This document shows positions 50,371-60,001 of a DNA stretch of 64,000 nucleotides, in pieces. How positions within the stretch are numbered: the first letter of the stretch is position 1; each line of letters begins with the position of its first letter. Source of the DNA: Sorangium cellulosum (GTDB taxonomy: Bacteria > Myxococcota_A > Polyangia > Polyangiales > Polyangiaceae); the NCBI RefSeq assembly GCF_004135735.1, contig NZ_CP012670.1, forward strand, positions 6,960,501-7,024,500, given 5' to 3'. The notes beneath the pieces were generated by a model. The model did no database searches. It worked only from the letters and a program-made list of their open reading frames with translations, and was not told where the DNA came from. Made by a program: the position numbers and the translations under genes.

Positions 50371-52605
50371 ATGATGAGACGCCGAGACTTTCTTCGCACC
50401 ACCCTGGTCACCGCCGGCGCGGTGGTCGTGCCGGCCGCCTGCACCGACGACGAGCCGACCATCGGCGCGTGCGACGTGCACGACGCCGACGGGTTCTTCC
50501 CCCAGTCGGTGGCCTCCGGCGACCCGAAGCCCGACAGCGTCGTGTTGTGGACCCGGGTCGTCGACGGCAAACAGCAGGCGGACCTGAGCCTGGCGCTCGC
50601 CATCGCGCTCGACCCGGAGTTCACCCAACTGCTGGAGCTGACGCCGGTCTCCGGGGGCCTGCTGACCGCCGGGTCGGGCAGCACGCGCGTCCTCGTCACG
50701 GCCCGGGCGGCGTTCGATCACTGCGTCAAGGTCAAGGTGACCGGACTCACCCCCGGGACCACGTACTATTACCGGTTCTATTACACGACGGGAGACGCCT
50801 GCTACCGCTCGCGCATGGGGCGGACGCGGACGGCGCCGGCGCCCGACGAGGACGTGCCCGTGCGCTTCGCCTTCGTGTCGTGTCAGGACTACATCGGTCG
50901 CTACTACAACGCCTATGCGGCGCTCGCGAAGGAAGAGCTCGACTTCGTCGTCCACCTCGGGGACTACATCTACGAGACGACCGGCGACCCGAGCTTCCAG
51001 AGCGCATCGAGCGAGCGAACGGTCACGTTCTCCGACGCGGACGGCGCCCTCGCGCTGGCCTCGGCGGACGGCGAGCCCTATCACGCCGCAAGGACGCTGA
51101 GCAATTACCGGGAGCTCTACAGGACGTACCGTTCGGACCCGAAGCTCCAGGCGGTGCACGAGCGCTTTCCCATGATCGCCACCTGGGATGATCACGAGTT
51201 CTCCAACGACTGCCACGGCGCGACGGCGACCTATTTCGACGGCCGGCAAGCGGAGACGGACGAGGAGCGCCGCAAGGCGGCCAATCAGGCGTGGTTCGAG
51301 TACATGCCGGTCGACTACCCCGACGGCGACGGCTTCGCGTACGACCGCGAGGCCAAGCACCCGGACGACATCAAGATTTACCGGGACTTCACCTTCGGCA
51401 AGCACGTCCACCTCGTGATGACGGACCTGCGCTCCTACCGCGCGGACCACCTGATCCCGGAGGACGCCTTCCCGGGGAAGATCGTCGTCGACAAAGACAA
51501 GCTCCACGCCGTGCTCGGCGAGCCGCCCGTCTCTGCGAGCCCGTACTTCGACGTCGACGGCCAAGGCTACGAAGACGTCAAGAAGGCGCTGGAGGATGCT
51601 GCGTCCGTGCTCAAGTTCGACCCGAGCTTCGGGTATGCCCCGAACGAGGGGGCCCGCCTGCTCAGCGGCACGTTCGTCAAGGCGCTCCTGGAGAGCATCA
51701 GCCCGGGGAGCACCGAGCAGATGCCGACCCTCTCCGAGACCGCGCTGGGCGGCATGGACCCCGGGTTCTCCTATGCCGACCTCGGGAAGACGGCGTTTTA
51801 CGGCGCCATGGGCTCGCGTTACCTGGTCGTCAAGGACGTCTTCGATGTCGTCTCGACCCCTGTCGCCCAGGATGACCCGGCGCGCGCCGCCGTCATGGGG
51901 GAAGCGCAGGAGGCGTGGTTCTTGACCACGATGCAGGAGTCCAAGAGCACCTGGAAGGTGTGGGGCAACGAATACTGCCTCTCGCAGCTCGCCATCGATC
52001 TCACGACGACCGCCCTCGAGGATGAGCGGTTCAAGCAGCGCTTCTACATGAGCTGCGACGGCTGGGACGGCTTTCGCCACCGGCGGAGCGAGCTGATCGA
52101 GCAGCTCGCGGAGGTCGGCAATGTGGTGGCCATCACGGGCGACATCCACGCCTTCCTCGCGGGGACGCCGGCCGCGGACGGCGATCCATCGAAGAAGATC
52201 GTCGAGTTCGTCGGCTCGTCGATCTCGTCGAGCACGTTCCACTCGGGGCTCGTGCGGCAGATCGCGCTCGATCCGCTCCTGAGCACCGTCCCCGACGCGC
52301 CGTTCGTCGCAGAGAGCCTCGAGGCATTGCTCACCGATACGGGAACCAAGATCAACCCTCACCTGGCCTTCGCCGATGCCAGGCACAACGGGTTCTGCAT
52401 CGCGGAGGCGAACGCCACCGAGCTCGTGGTGAGCATGTACCTGATTCCCGAGAACGTGGCCGAGTTGCCGCTGTACGGCGAGGGCGATACGATCGAAGGG
52501 ATGGTGATCGAGCGGTTCAAGACCGTGGCGGACGAGTCCGAGCTGTACAAGGACGACGGCGGCACGTGGAAGAGGTGGGATCCGGAGGCGGGGAGCTGGG
52601 CCTGA
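50371..52605 (+). CDS. PhoD-like alkaline phosphatase / phosphodiesterase, Tat-exported
   Basis: A 744-residue periplasmic or secreted metal-dependent phosphatase. The twin-arginine signal MMRRRDFLRTTLVTAGAVVVPAAC is at the N terminus and may end in a lipidated Cys. An N-terminal fibronectin-like PhoD domain follows (FFPQSVASGDPKPDSVVLWT; GLTPGTTYYYRFYY). The catalytic metal motifs come next: VHLGDYIYE, ATWDDHEFSND and ITGDIHAF. A long insertion (about 330-530) separates the last two. The length exceeds Bacillus PhoD (about 580). GGAGG lies ten bases before the ATG. Codon use is slightly less G/C-biased than its neighbours. Confidence 0.9.
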   Translation: MMRRRDFLRTTLVTAGAVVVPAACTDDEPTIGACDVHDADGFFPQSVASGDPKPDSVVLWTRVVDGKQQADLSLALAIALDPEFTQLLELTPVSGGLLTAGSGSTRVLVTARAAFDHCVKVKVTGLTPGTTYYYRFYYTTGDACYRSRMGRTRTAPAPDEDVPVRFAFVSCQDYIGRYYNAYAALAKEELDFVVHLGDYIYETTGDPSFQSASSERTVTFSDADGALALASADGEPYHAARTLSNYRELYRTYRSDPKLQAVHERFPMIATWDDHEFSNDCHGATATYFDGRQAETDEERRKAANQAWFEYMPVDYPDGDGFAYDREAKHPDDIKIYRDFTFGKHVHLVMTDLRSYRADHLIPEDAFPGKIVVDKDKLHAVLGEPPVSASPYFDVDGQGYEDVKKALEDAASVLKFDPSFGYAPNEGARLLSGTFVKALLESISPGSTEQMPTLSETALGGMDPGFSYADLGKTAFYGAMGSRYLVVKDVFDVVSTPVAQDDPARAAVMGEAQEAWFLTTMQESKSTWKVWGNEYCLSQLAIDLTTTALEDERFKQRFYMSCDGWDGFRHRRSELIEQLAEVGNVVAITGDIHAFLAGTPAADGDPSKKIVEFVGSSISSSTFHSGLVRQIALDPLLSTVPDAPFVAESLEALLTDTGTKINPHLAFADARHNGFCIAEANATELVVSMYLIPENVAELPLYGEGDTIEGMVIERFKTVADESELYKDDGGTWKRWDPEAGSWA

Positions 52606-52877: not shown

Positions 52878-54164
52878 CTAGCGCGCCAGCATGACCACGG
52901 TCCCGTCCCGGCACGCGACCGCCATCCGCTCCTCGCCGGCCGGGATCACCGCGATCGGCGTCGAGCAGACGCGCTCCGCGGCGATCGAGACGCTCCCATC
53001 CACGCCGACGACGCCCGCGCGCCCGCCCGCCCGCGCGAACCCGACGCGGCCGGCGCGGTCGATCACGACCGGCGGGCTCGGCTTCGCGTCCACCGGGCCG
53101 AAGAAGCCGGCGCGCCCGCCGCCGGCCGGAGGAGCGGGCGGAGGCCGGTCGAGGGCGATCCGGAACGCCTCGTCGCCCGAGGCGTCGACCCCGAGGAGCA
53201 GACCGGCCGACGTCATGAGCACGGCCGTGCCACCGGCCCCGATCGCGGGCGGCCCGTCGAGCATGCCGAGGGCGCTCCCGGCGCGGACGCTGGTGGTCCC
53301 GGTCGGCAGATCCAGCGCGACCAGGCGGCGGCCGTCGACGACCGCGAGCAGCGTCCGGGCGCCTTCGAGCGCGGCGCCGTGACGGGGCAGGCCGCCGAGG
53401 GAGCCGAGCCGCCTCGGCGCGCCCGGCGGACGCCAGGTCAGCACCGCGCCCGACTCGGTGGTCACGAGCGTGCCCTCGGGGCCCGCGAGCAGGGCGCCGA
53501 CCGCGCGGTCCGGGATCTCGACGCGCGCCCGCACGCCCCCGTCCGCGGCGAGCTCCACGAGCGACCGCCCCACGGCCGCCACGAAGCCGCCGTCGTCGAG
53601 CGCGAGCGGCGTGACGTCGGCATCCCGCCCCCGGACGCCGAGCGGCACCGCGAAGCGCACGCCGCCCGCGGGCGTGAGCCCCAGCGCGACGCCGGACGAG
53701 GTGATCATCGCGACGGTGCCGTCGCTGGTGATCACCGCCGGCGCGAGCGGCGCGCTGTTGCCGATGCGCACGCGCCAGCGCTCCCGGCCGTCCGATCCGA
53801 GCTTGACGACCTCGGGCACGGTCAGCGCGATGACGAGGTCGCCCCGGGCGTCCGCCAGCGGCGCCGCGTCGATGCCGCCGCGGAGCTGCCTCCGCCACGC
53901 CTCGCGCGCGGGGCTCGGCAGCGGCGACGGGGAGCGGCCGGTGCGGCGCGCGTCGAGCCGCTCGCTCGGGGCGAAGCCGCGGGGCGCGCCGACCACGACG
54001 GTGTGCGGCCGGCTCGTGTCGACGGCATCGGCGAAGGCGAGCGGCGCCGCGACGGGGAGCAGGGCCGCGGCGGGGAGCAGGAGGGCCGCGGCCGCGACGA
54101 GGCCCGCCCTCCACGAGCGACGTGGCCAGCGCGGGGCGCGCCGCGGCGCGCGATCGGCGCTCAC
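52878..54164 (-). CDS. Exported beta-propeller (PQQ-like repeat) protein
   Basis: A 428-residue protein. The Arg-rich start and hydrophobic segment (AGLVAAAALLLPAAALLPVA) are a signal peptide. The rest is built of about seven short blades with the pattern G-x-V-A-x-I-T-S-(S/D)-G (VITSDGTVAMITSSG; VVIDRAGRVGFARAGG), as in PQQ-like or BamB-like propellers. There is no catalytic motif; it is probably a binding or scaffold protein in the periplasm. The GTG start overlaps the TGA of the upstream zinc-ribbon gene (GTGA), so the two are translationally coupled. Confidence 0.8.
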   Translation of the reverse strand: MSADRAPRRAPRWPRRSWRAGLVAAAALLLPAAALLPVAAPLAFADAVDTSRPHTVVVGAPRGFAPSERLDARRTGRSPSPLPSPAREAWRRQLRGGIDAAPLADARGDLVIALTVPEVVKLGSDGRERWRVRIGNSAPLAPAVITSDGTVAMITSSGVALGLTPAGGVRFAVPLGVRGRDADVTPLALDDGGFVAAVGRSLVELAADGGVRARVEIPDRAVGALLAGPEGTLVTTESGAVLTWRPPGAPRRLGSLGGLPRHGAALEGARTLLAVVDGRRLVALDLPTGTTSVRAGSALGMLDGPPAIGAGGTAVLMTSAGLLLGVDASGDEAFRIALDRPPPAPPAGGGRAGFFGPVDAKPSPPVVIDRAGRVGFARAGGRAGVVGVDGSVSIAAERVCSTPIAVIPAGEERMAVACRDGTVVMLAR

Positions 54165-56215
54165 CGGGCCCCCTTCAGGGTGAACTCGACCGACACCTCG
54201 GGGATCTCGGCGCCGCCCGGCGCGACGAACGGGGGCGCGACGGTGCCGTACGCGGTGAGGACCTCCCCGCGCTGGGCGGGGTTCTCGGCCCCGTGGACGA
54301 GCCGGACGCTGCACGCCGCCGGAGGGCGCGGCGCGGCGCCCGGGCTCGAGCCCGCGGCGGTCGCGCCGCCGTCCTTGCAGCCGGCGGCGCGCGGGACCGA
54401 GAGCAGGATCATCGTGGAATGGCCCTGCCGGCGCGCCTCGAGGACCTCGCCGCGCAGCGCGATCGGCTTGCCGATGAGGTCCTCCCCGCCGGCGGCGAGC
54501 TCGGCGTAGCCGACGGGGCCGCGCGCGGCGAACTCCTTCGCGGCGGTCTCGAGCCGGTCGACCCGGCGCACCGCGATCTTCGCGATGCGCGGGGCCATCC
54601 CCCGCATCTTCGCGCGCACCTCGAACTGGGTCGCGCCCACCGACGAGACGTTCATCACGTGCGCGAAGGTGCCGTCGGGGCGGACCGCGATCGGGTGCGC
54701 GCCGGCGAAGATCTGCGCCCCGCGGGCCGTGCGCCCGGCCAGCACGAAGCTCTCCTTGTCGATGACCACGCTCGGGCCGGGCGCCTCGATGGTGAGGGGC
54801 ACGATGCCGACCGCGACGCTCACCATGCCCTGCTCGCGCGGCCCGTCGGGCGGCGCGACGGTGAACGGCACCTGCCGGCTCAGCGTCCTCGCGTCGTCCG
54901 CGAGCCCCGTGACCGCCTCGGTGACGTCGATCGACCGGATCGCCCGGCCGCCCGAGAGCGCGAGCTCCTTGCCGTCGAGGAGCACCTGCGTGCCCGCGCT
55001 CGCCTCGACCACGACCTGGATGGAGGGGCGCTCCCCTTGCAGCGTGCCGAGGTCGGGGCGGATCCGGTACGCGACGTGGATCGAGACGCCGACCGTCTCG
55101 TCGCGCCCTCCCCCCGGGCGGTCGATGGCGACCTTCACCCGGTTCTCGCCGACGGAGAGCGGGCTCGCGAGCGGGATCTGCGCGACGCGGCCCGTGATCG
55201 TGGCGCGGTCGCCGCCGATGGACACGGTCGTGCCGTCGGGGCAGCTCTCGCACCGGAGCTCGATGACCTCGCGGCCGCCGGCGTCGGCGCGGGCGCGCGC
55301 GGTGACCGGCGGTGCGCTCGGCCAGAGCAGCGCGAACAGCACCGCGGCGATCGCGAGCACGCCGCCCGCGGCGACGACGGCGACGGCGCGGCGCGACGTG
55401 CGCGCGCGCCGGGGCGGCGGCACCATCCGCTGCTGCAGCCGGTGCGGGCGCAGCAGCATCGGGTTGGGCAGCGCCGCGGCGCGGGCGCGCACCGGCGCGA
55501 TCGTCGCGCCGAGCTCTTCGGCCGGCTGGTAGCGCGCGTCATGGTCGGGCGCGGGGTGAGGCTCGGGCTCGGCCGGCGCGCCGGGCACGGGCGCCGCGAT
55601 CCCGGGCGCGAGCGGCGCGATGCCGGGGCGGGCCACGCCGACCAGCGTGCGGGAGACGGCGGGGGGCGGCGCCGGGCAGCGCGCCGCGCCGGCGCCCGGG
55701 GGCAGCACCGCGGTCTGATCGAGGGGGGGCGCGCCGGCTGCCAGCGGCCCGCCGAGCCGCGCCCCGGGCGAACGGTGCGCGCCGGCTGCCGGGGGCGCGC
55801 CGGCCGCCGGGGGCACGTCGAAGCGCGCGCCCAGTCCGGCAGCCGCCGGGGTCCCGACGACGAGCGTGCCTCCGGAGAGGCGCGGATCGGCCGGCGCGGG
55901 CGCCACGCCGAAGCTCGCGACGGGCATGCCGACGAGCGTGCGCGAGCCGGCGCCCGGCACGCCGGCCATCGGCGCCGGCGCGGTGCCGCTGTTCGGCGCC
56001 GGCGCGGTGCCGCCGTGGCCAGCGCCGCCGGGGCCGGCCGAGGCGGACGCGAGGTGCCGGAGCGCGTCGGGGAGCGCGACGCCGACCATGGTGCGGGTCG
56101 CGGGCCTCTGGGCATGGAAAGCCCCGGGGCCGCCCGGCCCCGACAGCGCAGCGCCACAGTGCGGGCACATGATCGAGCCCTCGGGCGTGGGTTTCCCGCA
56201 GTGCGGGCAATGCAT
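54161..56215 (-). CDS. Zinc-ribbon, single-span membrane protein with RTxVG motifs
   Basis: A 684-residue protein. Residues 1-22 are a zinc ribbon (MHCPHCGKP...CPHCGAAL). A 210-residue Pro/Ala/Gly linker contains three short matches to RT(M/L)VG(V/M) and one TLVVG. One membrane segment follows (AVAVVAAGGVLAIAAVLFALLW, about 280-300), then about 380 residues of beta-rich periplasmic sequence with several Ig-like or carbohydrate-binding-like strands. Similar RTLVG-type motifs recur in linkers of myxobacterial zinc-ribbon proteins and may be kinase or FHA targets; that is inference. The function is unknown. It is coupled to the propeller gene by GTGA. Confidence 0.78.
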   Translation of the reverse strand: MHCPHCGKPTPEGSIMCPHCGAALSGPGGPGAFHAQRPATRTMVGVALPDALRHLASASAGPGGAGHGGTAPAPNSGTAPAPMAGVPGAGSRTLVGMPVASFGVAPAPADPRLSGGTLVVGTPAAAGLGARFDVPPAAGAPPAAGAHRSPGARLGGPLAAGAPPLDQTAVLPPGAGAARCPAPPPAVSRTLVGVARPGIAPLAPGIAAPVPGAPAEPEPHPAPDHDARYQPAEELGATIAPVRARAAALPNPMLLRPHRLQQRMVPPPRRARTSRRAVAVVAAGGVLAIAAVLFALLWPSAPPVTARARADAGGREVIELRCESCPDGTTVSIGGDRATITGRVAQIPLASPLSVGENRVKVAIDRPGGGRDETVGVSIHVAYRIRPDLGTLQGERPSIQVVVEASAGTQVLLDGKELALSGGRAIRSIDVTEAVTGLADDARTLSRQVPFTVAPPDGPREQGMVSVAVGIVPLTIEAPGPSVVIDKESFVLAGRTARGAQIFAGAHPIAVRPDGTFAHVMNVSSVGATQFEVRAKMRGMAPRIAKIAVRRVDRLETAAKEFAARGPVGYAELAAGGEDLIGKPIALRGEVLEARRQGHSTMILLSVPRAAGCKDGGATAAGSSPGAAPRPPAACSVRLVHGAENPAQRGEVLTAYGTVAPPFVAPGGAEIPEVSVEFTLKGAR

Positions 56216-56399: not shown

Positions 56400-57197
56400 A
56401 TGCTCGCGAAGCGCATCATCCCGTGCCTCGATGTCAAAGACGGCCGCGTCGTGAAGGGCGTCCGCTTCGTGGGGCTGCGGGACGCCGGCGATCCCGTCGA
56501 GGCCGCCCGTCGCTACGACGCCGAGGGCGCGGATGAGATCACGTTCCTCGACATCACCGCGTCGCACGAGAAGCGCGGGATCTTGCTCGACGTCGTGGCG
56601 CGGACCGCGGACGTGCTGTTCACGCCGCTGACGGTCGGCGGCGGCGTCCGGTCCGAGCAGGACGTCGAGGCGCTCCTCCATGCGGGGGCCGACAAGGTGG
56701 CGATCAACACGGCCGCCGTGAACGATCCCGACCTCGTGCGGCGCGCCGCGGACCGGTGGGGCGCGCAGGCGATCGTGGTCGCGATCGACGCGCGCCGCAT
56801 CGAGGATCCCTCGCGCGTGGCCTGGACCGTGGTGACCCACGGCGGCCGGCGGGACACGGGGCGCGACGCGGTCGCGTGGGCGGAGGAGATCGCGCGCGCC
56901 GGCGCGGGGGAGCTGCTGGTCACGAGCATGGACCGCGACGGCACGCGGGACGGGTACGATCTGCTGCTGACCGCCGCCATCGCGCGCGCCGTGTCGGTCC
57001 CGGTGATCGCCTCGGGCGGCGTCGGGACGCTGGACCACCTGCGCGCCGGGCTCGTCGAGGGCGGGGCCGACGCGGCGCTCGCCGCGTCGATCTTCCACGA
57101 CGGCGAGTACACGATCGGCGAGGCGAAGGCGTACCTCGAGGCGGCGGGGGTGCCGGTCCGGCCAGCGCGCGCCGCGGCGGAGCGGGGGCTGTCGTGA
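56400..57197 (+). CDS. hisF: Imidazole glycerol phosphate synthase cyclase subunit
   Basis: A 265-residue TIM barrel in histidine synthesis. With HisH it uses ammonia to turn PRFAR into imidazole glycerol phosphate and AICAR. Catalytic Asp11 is in [15 protein letters not shown] and the second Asp in VVAIDARR. The phosphate loops are [14 protein letters not shown] and [12 protein letters not shown]. The length is normal. No other his gene is nearby, which is unusual but seen in scattered his pathways. Its TGA overlaps the GTG of the next gene. Confidence 0.95.
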
Positions 57198-59584
57198 GCG
57201 CGTGCGTCACGCTGGACGAGGTCCTCGCGGCGGCGCACGCGCGCTGCGCCTCGCTGGTGCCGGAGACGTCGGGCTACCTCGCGCTCGCGGTGAGCGACGC
57301 GACGTCGCGCCTGCCGCTGCGGCTCGACGAGCGCGCGGTGCTGCTCACGACCGAGGGCACGGTCACGGTGCGCTCGCGCGGGGAGCCGGTGGCGCCCGCG
57401 GAGGCCGCTCGGCACCTGCGCGACCTGCTCGCGCGGCTGCTCGCCGCGTCCGCCGGGAGCATGCCGAACCTCACGGCCACGGCGCGCCCGCGCGCCGTGG
57501 CGGAGCGGGATCCGGATGCGGTCGCGCGAGAGCTCGAGGCCGCGCTGATCCCGGTGAACCGCCACGCCGCCCGGCGCGCGCTCGCGCGGCTCGCCCGCGA
57601 GACGCTGCGCGCCAGGGACGCCGGCCGGCTGCGGCGCGCGCGCGGCGAGGTCCAGGCGAGGCCGCCGGCGCCCGGCGCGGAGGCGGCGCCGGCGCAGCTC
57701 GCGGAAGCCGCCGGCGCAGCCGCGCCGCGCGCCGAGGCGGCCGCGCCGCCGCGCGCCGAGGCGGCCGCGCCGCCGCGCGCCGAGGCGGCCGCGCCGCCGC
57801 GCGCCGAGGCGGCCGCGCCGCCGCGCGCCGAGGCGGCCGCGCCGCGCGCCGAGGCGGCCGCGCCGCCGCGCGCCGAGGCGGCCGCCGCGCCCGCGCCCGC
57901 CGGGATCGCGCTGCCCCTCGATCCCGGGCCGGTGGCTCCCGCGGGGGTCGAGCTGACGCTCGACCTCGGGGAGGCCGCCTGTGAAGAGGCCGGGCTGACG
58001 GTCCCTGCCCCGGCGATCGTCGACGACGCGGCCGGGCCCGCAGCCTTCGAGCCGCCGTCCCGGGCCGATCCGGCGCACGGGTACGCCGCTTACGAAAGCG
58101 AGCTGGCCGAGGGCTTCCCGGAGCCGACCCCGACCATCGTGCAGGCGGTGGTGGAGGTCGAGCCAGCGGCAGCGCTGGCGGAGATCCCGCTCATCCCGGA
58201 GCTCGTCGAGCCGGCGCGGACGGTCGCGCCGGTGGCGCCGATCGCCCCCGTGGCGCCGATCGCTGCCGCGGTGCTGGACGCGGCCGTGGCGGTCGATCCT
58301 GCCGAAGCGCGTGCCGTGCCCGCCTCGGAGACGGACGCCGTCGCGCGCGACACGGCGGCGTGCGAGGGAGCGTTCACGAGCCCGGAGGGCATCGAGGCGA
58401 TCCTCGTCGCGTTTTCCCCGGACCCCACCGGCGTCGTACCGCGCACGCAGGAGCCGACGCCGACGGTGGCCACGCCGGTCTGGACCGAGGCGGCGGACGC
58501 CGAGAGCGCTATCGATGTCGGCATGGCGGTGGCGCCCGCCGGCGTCGCGGAAGACGCCCCCGCCGGCGTCGCGGAAGACGCCCCCGCCGGCGTCGCGGAA
58601 GACGCCCCCGCCGGCGTCGCGGAAGACGCCCCCGCCGGCGTCGCGGAAGACGCCCCCGCCGGCGTCGCGACCGTCCCGGCGGCCACGGTCGAGGCCTCGC
58701 GCGCGACGGCCGTCGCGACCGCCGATCCTCGGCCCGCGGAGGAGCCCGCGCCCCAGCTCACCCCGGCCTACGGCGGCTTGTCCTCCGCCCACCGCGAGGC
58801 GCTCGCCTCCGTGCCCTCCTGTCCTCGAGCCAGCGTGGCATCGCCCGAGGAATCGCCGGCAGCGCGGCACACGCTGCCCTGGCCGGTCCCGGCGAGGTGC
58901 GACGCGCGCGATCTGGCCGCGCCCCCCGCGGACGCGGCGCCCGCCGAGATGGCGCCGGCCGAGATGGCGCCCGCCGAGATGGCGCCCGCCGAGATGGCGC
59001 CGGCCGACGTGCCGCCGGCGGAGGAGCCGTGCCCGCCCGGCCTCGCCCCCATCGACGCCATCGTGTGGAGCGCCTCGCGGAGAGCCCGGAGCGCGCCCCC
59101 TCCGGCCGACGGCGACGGCGCCCACGCCTCCCGGGTCGACGAGCTCATGGCGCGCTTCGTGGCGAGGTCGGAGCGCAGCACGCAGCGCCGCGCCGCGCGC
59201 AGCATGAAGGTGCTGGCCGGCCTCGACCCCACGCTCACGCCGCCCCCGGTCGCGGTCCTCCCGGCGAACGCCGCGCTCGCGATCCCGGGCGCGCGCCCGC
59301 CGGCCACCGTCACCCGGAGCGCCGCGAGCCGCCCCGATCCGTCCGAGGATGCCGCGCACCGGGCCTCGCTGGACGGGCGCAGCAGGCCGCCTGCGCCGCT
59401 CTGGACGCCGCGCCGGAAGGGGCTGTCCCTCTGGCTCGCGCTCGTCGCGCTCGCGCTGCTCGGCGCCGGGCTCGCCGGGACCCTGCGTCCGGAGCTGTTC
59501 GCCTCGCTGGCGCAACCGCTCGCGCGCGAGGCGCCTCACGCCGCGCCGCACGCGGCGGCGAAGGCCCCCCTCGCTCACGATTGA
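57194..59584 (+). CDS. Low-complexity protein with C-terminal membrane anchor
   Basis: A 796-residue protein I cannot name. Residues 1-140 look folded ([47 protein letters not shown]). Three tandem repeats follow: PPRAEAAA (about 176-230), APAGVAED five times (447-486) and APAEM four times (582-601), all inside a long Ala/Pro/Glu linker. A membrane segment ([19 protein letters not shown], about 748-766) lies near the end, so most of the protein is probably cytoplasmic and tail-anchored. GTG overlaps the hisF stop (GTGA). The folded start recurs in myxobacterial hypothetical proteins as far as I can judge. Confidence 0.72.
57721..57883. repeat. 24-bp in-frame repeats (PPRAEAAA)
   Basis: GCCGCGCGCCGAGGCGGCCG-type units of 24 bp, with two 21-bp units lacking one Pro codon, are repeated about seven times. 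They code an Ala/Glu/Pro stretch in the low-complexity protein. Confidence 0.9.
58532..58651. repeat. Five-copy 24-bp in-frame repeat (APAGVAED)
   Basis: GC(G/C)CCCGCCGGCGTCGCGG plus AAGAC is repeated five times without gaps; copies are virtually identical, which suggests recent expansion. Confidence 0.95.
58937..58996. repeat. Four-copy 15-bp in-frame repeat (APAEM)
   Basis: GCGCC(C/G)GCCGAGATG is repeated four times in the same low-complexity gene. Confidence 0.93.
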
Positions 59585-59617
59585 CGCTGCCCCCGGGGAG
59601 CGACGAAGATCCCCGCC

Positions 59618-60001
59618 ATGCAAGAGCAGACCATGGCGATCGTGAAGTCGCTCGTGAGCGTGGCGTGGGCGGACGGCGAGTTCCACGACGCCGAGCGCGA
59701 GATGGTCGAGGGCCTCATCTCGGCGTTCGAGGCGAGCGAGGACGAGGCGAAGGAGATCCGCGCCTACGCCGCCGAGAAGAAGACGCTGGACGACGCGCCC
59801 ATCGGCCAGCTCGGCGGCGACGACCGCCGCGCGCTGCTCCAGCACGCGGTGCTGCTCACCTTCGTCGACGGCGAGCAGCACGACGCGGAGCGGCAGTACC
59901 TCGCCGCGCTCTGCAAGAAGCTGGAGCTCCCGGACGGCGAGGCCGCGCAGATCATCCAGGCGGCCGAGGCCCGCGCCAGGCGGCTCCTCCCCCTGCTCTG
60001 A
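59618..60001 (+). CDS. TerB-like protein
   Basis: A 127-residue all-helical cytosolic protein with two similar halves, each carrying an acidic signature: ADGEFHDAEREMVEGLI and VDGEQHDAERQYLAALC. This is the TerB / co-chaperone-like fold, whose Asp and Glu residues can bind metal. Family members occur in tellurite-resistance and envelope-stress systems, but isolated copies are common and have no proven role. The ATG at 59618 gives the family length. It lies 33 bases after the low-complexity gene and may share its transcript. Confidence 0.85.
   Translation: MQEQTMAIVKSLVSVAWADGEFHDAEREMVEGLISAFEASEDEAKEIRAYAAEKKTLDDAPIGQLGGDDRRALLQHAVLLTFVDGEQHDAERQYLAALCKKLELPDGEAAQIIQAAEARARRLLPLL

Follow-up and report, generated by a model that had tools for sequence, protein, structure and literature searches.

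Genes and protein architecture

We analysed a 64,000-nucleotide stretch of Sorangium cellulosum (NZ_CP012670.1, positions 6,960,501 to 7,024,500; hereafter the window), in which two overlapping genes encode a zinc-ribbon membrane protein (ZnR) and an exported beta-propeller, a pair that in many relatives is accompanied by a Hanks-type Ser/Thr kinase. Both open reading frames of the initial annotation were recovered, with GTGA shared by the ZnR stop and the propeller start. The architecture it had proposed, an exported propeller next to a protein with a ribbon, one membrane span and a beta-rich part, is borne out by Pfam, hydropathy, AlphaFold2 and a signal sequence read by eye (Table 1).

Table 1 Features of the ZnR and propeller genes, in window positions.
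Feature	Position	Strand	Basis and remarks
Propeller gene	52878..54164	(-)	GTG start, 428 aa; exported PQQ/BamB-like beta-propeller
Predicted signal peptide of propeller	54030..54164	(-)	Cleavage after AFA, aa 45; by eye from sequence
Stop/start overlap GTGA, 4 nt	54161..54164	(-)	ZnR stop shared with propeller GTG start
ZnR gene	54161..56215	(-)	ATG start, 684 aa; zinc ribbon inside, one transmembrane span, Ig-like/OB part outside
C-terminal OB-fold domain, aa 566-684	54164..54520	(-)	AlphaFold2, VIA; two invariant cysteines
Tandem Ig/macroglobulin-like beta-sandwich domains, aa 305-554	54554..55303	(-)	AlphaFold2, Foldseek/VIA; predicted periplasmic
Transmembrane span, ~aa 275-305	55301..55393	(-)	Hydropathy scan; arginine-rich on N-terminal side
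Linker motif 3, RTLVGVA, then RPGIAP	55631..55651	(-)	Copy best kept among close relatives
Linker motif 2, RTLVGMP	55922..55942	(-)	
Linker motif 1, RTMVGVA	56075..56095	(-)	
Zinc ribbon, aa 2-24, CPHC...CPHC	56144..56212	(-)	PF13240 match

ZnR runs from the ribbon through a Pro/Ala-rich linker and one hydrophobic span to a 380-residue exported part, and the positive-inside rule predicts that its N-terminus lies in the cytosol. The protein passes the Zn_Ribbon_1 (PF13240) cut-off narrowly (25.7 vs 25 bits) with four cysteines present, and the ribbon pattern recurs in 51 of the 59 distinct ZnR orthologues, some of the other eight being clipped by contig ends. The AlphaFold2 model of the ectodomain, built from 26 sequences, has a mean predicted local distance difference test (pLDDT) score of 88.9. 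Its beta-sandwiches resemble Ig/macroglobulin-like domains (Foldseek/VIA); whole-model TM-scores are low (about 0.14-0.23), a level to be expected of a chain with several domains. Its OB domain aligns in VIA with that of AspRS (Z 10.6, root-mean-square deviation 2.3, 86 residues). The two OB-domain cysteines are invariant in alignments A2 and A4, as is a juxtamembrane CxxC (aa 322/325) in A4; the CxxC is missing from remoter families, for example L069, L077 and L089. Pfam Glucodextran_B was matched in 14 of the 26 members of A4 and not in the window's own ZnR, and no NCBIfam model names the protein: the window's copy gave one weak match, HrpD5 (E 0.098), and two orthologues gave none.

The propeller narrowly meets the PQQ_2 (PF13360) gathering score (28.1 vs 27.6 bits). 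Its AlphaFold2 model, from 22 sequences, has a mean pLDDT of 85.6, and structural matches identify it as eight-bladed: Z is ~35 for YxaL and for Rv3035 of mycobacteria, 34 for the designed Cake8 and ~29-31 for BamB, the last across about 310 residues. Two cysteines near the C-terminus (aa 400 and 418) are kept in at least 90% of alignment A5. No lipobox cysteine was seen near the signal peptide when the sequence was read by eye, and assignment as a BamB orthologue (TIGR03300) was rejected on this ground and on a score of 15.3 bits vs a 285.2 cut-off.

Linkage of ZnR and propeller across genomes

We surveyed 59 genomes, the own one included; regions were fetched, and every reading frame in them was screened with one profile each for ZnR, the propeller and the ectodomain of the kinase. 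Of the 59 genomes, 43 gave a ZnR match, and G041, matched at aa 2-42 only, was set aside, leaving 42; a later profile search recovered further distant ZnR copies in G007, G041 and G055. The propeller adjoins ZnR or lies one gene apart in 32/42 genomes (own included), comprising 19 ZnR-propeller pairs, the window's among them, and 13 ZnR-kinase-propeller trios. Three further genomes hold ZnR and kinase only (G022, G043 and G042, whose contig ends), and seven hold neither partner (G031, G036, G044 at a contig end, G046, G050, G051 and G057). The linkage spans families f1, f3, f4, f5 and f10 of the window's order, Polyangiales, with good propeller scores, and f6 with weak ones.

Viewed from the propeller side, ZnR lies alongside in 23 of the 28 genomes matching at E ~2e-12 or better, the exceptions being G009, G010, G028, G031 and G036. 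A cut at 1e-10 changes this to 23/31 by adding G022, G055 and G056, none of which has ZnR alongside that match; matches weaker than 1e-10 include other propellers. A scan of named genomes, several of them the same as genomes of the survey, found the propeller next to ZnR or behind the kinase in 23 of 28 loci (8 of them trios) and missed it in L148, L156 and three loci cut by contig ends (L143, L150, L154). At one locus, L132 (Minicystis rosea), about 1.4 kb separates kinase and propeller. Thus, the two genes stay together in most genomes carrying either, and the refuting case named in the initial annotation does not apply, although the coupling is not obligatory, given the split in G036.

In the own genome (11.26 Mb, one contig), ZnR and propeller each give a single match at E up to 0.001. 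Compared with three congeners, the ratio of nonsynonymous to synonymous substitution rates (dN/dS) is 0.46-0.65 for ZnR, with the ectodomain below the linker, and 0.39-0.48 for the propeller. The exact 4-nt overlap occurs in 23 of the 32 genomes (window included) where a kinase or propeller was called adjoining ZnR, a count that includes the frameshifted call L070, where the overlap is between kinase and propeller. Following ZnR, the overlap precedes kinase and propeller alike, a pattern consistent with ZnR being produced together with the partner encoded next, be it kinase or propeller, and suggestive of translational coupling of the pair. Together, the single genome matches, the dN/dS values and the recurring overlap argue that the pairing is not due to chance.

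A Hanks-type kinase as the third gene

The initial annotation had asked which third gene, if any, joins the pair. We show that it is a Hanks-type Ser/Thr kinase, which lies between ZnR and propeller in 13/42 genomes and beside ZnR in 3 more, so that 16/42 carry it in the same run of genes. Where it was called, the intervening kinase is about 630-840 aa long. Two kinases that were scanned matched Pkinase at E 1.6e-43 and 6.5e-51, and the activation segments read DFG..[AS]PE. Among the 17 kinases used for the profile, a zinc ribbon lies near the N-terminus in 13, and a hydrophobic stretch just before the ectodomain in all 17, with a best 19-residue hydropathy of 1.24-2.51 that exceeds the 1.7 threshold in 8 only. 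The periplasmic part carries two EPN[DN]-type repeats. We call it PPC-like because it matches PPC in 2/17 members (best E 0.0016) and its profile matches the collagenase structure 5iku (E 1.2e-8). This profile, whose 17 members were drawn from the same set, matches 22/59 genomes at E below 1e-50.

Two other interpretations of the kinase were considered. Against PADLOC, the L081 kinase had matches (PD-T4-6, MADS6) that, among the 25 listed of the 34 matching models, fall mostly on residues 134-415, with a few reaching 519; these are probably generic kinase matches rather than signs of a defence system, and ZnR and propeller had no PADLOC match. The 1092-aa reading of L070 (G054) as a ZnR-kinase fusion is a frameshifted call, and no fusion is claimed.

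Outside the order, ten loci were fetched, representing all genomes with a ZnR match above about 50 bits; below that level (16 of the 26 matching genomes outside the order), matches fall mostly on the Ig-like region, and many of the matching frames are 1000-5000 aa long. The kinase lies immediately downstream of ZnR in 10/10 loci, each with an HRD signature or a strong ectodomain match; L190, L192 and L193 have low kinase-ectodomain scores (39-45 bits), yet retain the HRD signature and the ribbon. The propeller, in contrast, is absent in 7 of the 8 loci with a continuing contig, the contigs of L190 and L195 ending at the kinase. Its single occurrence is in G160 (L189), which lies outside the window's class and holds a full trio close to that of the family (ZnR E 1.2e-124), possibly reflecting horizontal transfer or a mixed assembly. 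The constant presence of the kinase and the near-absence of the propeller in these loci suggest that ZnR and kinase form the old core.

In the window's genus, the kinase has apparently been lost. With the kinase ectodomain of a close relative as query, nothing was found in any of the six genus genomes; that search had no positive control of its own, and a profile covering nearly the same query stretch does recover the kinase family. In the genus, this kinase profile gave only one weak partial match (G001, 8e-7, in a 1174-aa frame). Relocation of the kinase elsewhere in Sorangium was considered and no such copy was found, the profile search of G000 having scored 41 of 130 candidates. In a ZnR tree (quick method, no bootstrap), kinase presence requires 11-12 changes, at least 7 of them forced by well-supported branches, and the window falls in a supported group of 14 rows, 3 of which bear a kinase. 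The most economical explanation is that ZnR and kinase formed an old core, that the propeller was added in the order and that the kinase was lost repeatedly. The tree alone allows repeated gain, which is less likely because the ZnR-kinase pair occurs in other classes.

With one kinase as query, at least 150 matches at E up to 1e-20 were counted in G000 (150 of 302 candidate places scored), whose kinase complement thus seems very large. One report (PMC2887360) credits M. xanthus and S. cellulosum with the most eukaryotic-like protein kinases of any genome analysed at that time.

A repeated threonine motif in the ZnR linker

The ZnR linker repeats a motif with the consensus [RK]T[ML][LV]G[VM][AP]xPGIAP and the core [RK]T[ML][LV]G[VM]. 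We found 168 copies in 49 of the 51 ribbon-recognisable ZnR rows (of 59 distinct), compared with a mean of 0.645 and a maximum of 3 when the same linkers were shuffled 200 times. Every copy with a PG[IVF]A tail has Thr and never Ser (51/51), and Arg or Lys stands ahead of the Thr in 117/182 copies. Outside the order, a related form (such as RTLFGMPAL or KTVFGLAPV) occupies the same place in 9/10 loci, L195 being doubtful. Loci L084, L086, L210, L211 and L213 keep ribbon, kinase and propeller and lack the motif, with linkers of 116-169 residues, and would serve as natural motif-minus controls.

The motif does not behave as a proteome-wide signal, as most matches to an Arg-anchored pattern in G000 (3/5 genome-wide) lie in ZnR; the other two lie in what we take to be FtsL-like and tail-sheath-like proteins. 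A narrower pattern gave 3 matches in G000, 2 of them in ZnR. A TMLG pattern gave 55 matches across eight genomes, and the 30 that were read comprised 9 in ZnR and 21 in other, ribbon-less frames. These patterns cover part of the possible codons and residues, and the rarity elsewhere holds for them alone. A weakly supported idea is that the motif imitates the P+1 loop of kinases ([AT]-hydrophobic-hydrophobic-GTPYYMAPE); in that register, Thr occurs in only 4/37 distinct kinase segments and Ala in 23.

Neighbouring genes

A PhoD-like phosphatase gene (window 50371-52605 (+)) faces the propeller gene. On the other side, a divergent block adjoins ZnR (window 56400-60001 (+)), consisting of hisF, a long Pro/Ala-rich protein and a TerB-like protein, and recurs in relatives (e.g., L062, L082, L086, L091, L101, L102). 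The Pro/Ala-rich protein (57194-59584 (+)) has a C-terminal hydrophobic span, is without a Pfam match and contains five tandem PAGVAEDA copies (58535-58654 (+)). In G036 (L093), the propeller, though detached from ZnR, has kept the PhoD-like phosphatase and that phosphatase's next neighbour at its side, and ZnR retains some neighbours found beyond hisF in Sorangium.

Interpretation and alternatives

We propose that the pair is a kinase-less form of a myxobacterial envelope-signalling module, a reading to which we would give an even chance of being correct. The core of such a module would consist of ZnR and a Hanks-type Ser/Thr kinase with a hydrophobic segment, a PPC-like periplasmic domain and, usually, its own ribbon; this core the exported eight-bladed propeller would have joined as periplasmic partner in the window's order. 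ZnR would act as a single-pass co-receptor or adaptor: in the periplasm, its Ig-like/OB ectodomain may bind the propeller as well as the ectodomain of the kinase, if there is one, and its cytosolic ribbon and repeated RT[ML][LV]G[VM] tail may serve to dock or display partners in the cytosol, kinases or a reader protein being plausible candidates. In Sorangium, where the cis-kinase appears to be gone and ZnR and propeller overlap directly, the unit may use another of the many kinases or be a scaffold.

The initial annotation had described the pair as looking like a transmembrane sensor or assembly module. Its topology, by prediction, and its linkage, by comparison, have held up, whereas the pair can no longer be taken as the whole system, a Ser/Thr kinase having been missed. 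A sensor is now better supported than an assembly factor, function and interaction being predicted, as are the binding between the parts, the direction of signalling, what the motif binds and any ligand.

Several observations weigh against the signalling module. In the window, no kinase accompanies the pair. Of the 28 phylum-sample genomes that match the kinase strongly (E below 1e-50), 10 have no ZnR adjoining it (G010, G019, G040, G049, G053, G164, G179, G215, G224 and G308), in a comparison that scored the best 7-8 candidates per genome and was confined to these strong matches, 62 further genomes giving weaker ones. The one-contig genome G036 has ZnR and propeller about 6.5 Mb apart, and in G031 the propeller is on a different contig from ZnR. 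ZnR occurs without either partner in G046, G050, G051 and G057, and alone in G007 and G041, and G028 has kinase and propeller, ZnR not being found in the search. Finally, among 74 ribbon-complete ZnR, the motif is present in 39/39 whose fetched locus shows no kinase (L077, L143 and L154 among these loci end at a contig edge) and in 30/35 with a kinase (L195 counted in), being absent in 5.

Alternatively, the pair might be an envelope scaffold without signalling, in which ZnR and propeller assemble or reinforce a complex of the envelope, much as BamB acts in BAM and Rv3035 with FecB and AftB, and the kinase is a dispensable regulator; we consider this possible, though well short of even. It would agree with the propeller's best structural matches, which include YxaL, Rv3035 and BamB, and with the 19/42 genomes that have ZnR and propeller without an adjoining kinase. 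Furthermore, one study (PMC12802301) reports that Rv3035/MMAR_1667 belongs to a complex with FecB and AftB in the mycobacterial envelope, a precedent for such a propeller as an envelope-complex partner. However, the conserved cytosolic ribbon and the repeated motif suggest a cytosolic role, ZnR outside the order pairs with the kinase (10/10) while the propeller is missing in 7/8 continuing contigs, and the BamB model score falls far below its cut-off.

A broader version of the signalling module strikes us as somewhat unlikely: a phylum-wide three-part myxobacterial receptor, in which a ribbon-tailed co-receptor would use a private multi-copy motif to recruit its own reader or kinase in the cytosol, an external cue would be brought in by a detachable propeller, and Sorangium would have been rewired to do without its own kinase.

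It is improbable that the motif Thr is a multi-site phospho-acceptor of the adjoining kinase (in Sorangium, of another one), to be read by a phosphothreonine-binding protein. The invariable Thr of the long-form copies (51/51), the frequent Arg or Lys before it and, in many relatives, a kinase in the same gene run that looks active from its sequence would suit such a model. Nevertheless, the usual FHA preference does not fit Gly at +3, and the motif does not track the cis-kinase, being missing from 5/35 kinase-adjoining ZnR and present in all kinase-less ones, which argues against its being simply that kinase's substrate. The idea of a substrate of the cis-kinase only is thus contradicted in part, and the motif's partner is probably not only the cis-kinase.

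We find it very improbable that ZnR is a gliding-motility-type adaptor with a ribbon tail to which a motor or GTPase in the cytosol would dock. The model for such a role, GltJ (AgmX) of Myxococcus xanthus, has an N-terminal zinc ribbon, a cytosolic linker, one transmembrane segment and a periplasmic part, together with GYF and TonB domains. ZnR follows the same general plan; unlike GltJ, it has no GYF or TonB among the Pfam matches of the window's copy up to E 0.5, and it carries an OB/Ig ectodomain and the repeated RT[ML][LV]G motif. No motility gene was seen among the few neighbours identified. Least credible of all are chance neighbours without joint function, to which the split in G036 and lineages holding each gene without the others would point. 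Against this reading stand the linkage of ZnR and propeller in six of the order's families (f6 by weak propeller scores) and a 4-nt overlap in 23/32 cases.

Comparison with known systems

To our knowledge, sensors, partners and substrates are known for few of these myxobacterial kinases. A membrane protein that is linked to a kinase, occurs in several of the phylum's classes and comes with a repeated candidate docking motif and a detachable propeller would give an entry, offering a candidate receptor complex together with candidate docking sites, and the natural forms without a cis-kinase (Sorangium, Polyangium) would serve for comparison. A search of the open-access literature returned no description of the ZnR-kinase-propeller trio.

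The window's propeller resembles BamB, YxaL and Rv3035 as an exported PQQ_2 propeller with an eight-bladed fold; it differs from BamB in lacking a lipobox, in scoring far under the cut-off and in having a ribbon-tailed membrane protein as gene partner. For the relatives' kinases, the best NCBIfam match of the two scanned is the PASTA kinase PknB (NF033483; 301 and 326.7 bits, under the 450-bit cut-off), of the PknB/StkP family, from which they are set apart by a PPC-like ectodomain and, in 13/17, a ribbon near the N-terminus. The PknD of M. tuberculosis bears a beta-propeller sensor domain. Like kinases of the PknB/PknD kind, the relatives' system combines a cytosolic kinase, one hydrophobic segment and an external beta-rich part, with a beta-propeller involved. 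In contrast to that kind, the kinase, the ribbon protein and the propeller are three individual polypeptides, the kinase ectodomain is neither PASTA nor propeller, and the window has no kinase. Kinases with external beta-rich sensors were already known; what is new, as far as can be told, is the variant with a separate ribbon-tailed protein that bears a repeated motif and with a detachable propeller.

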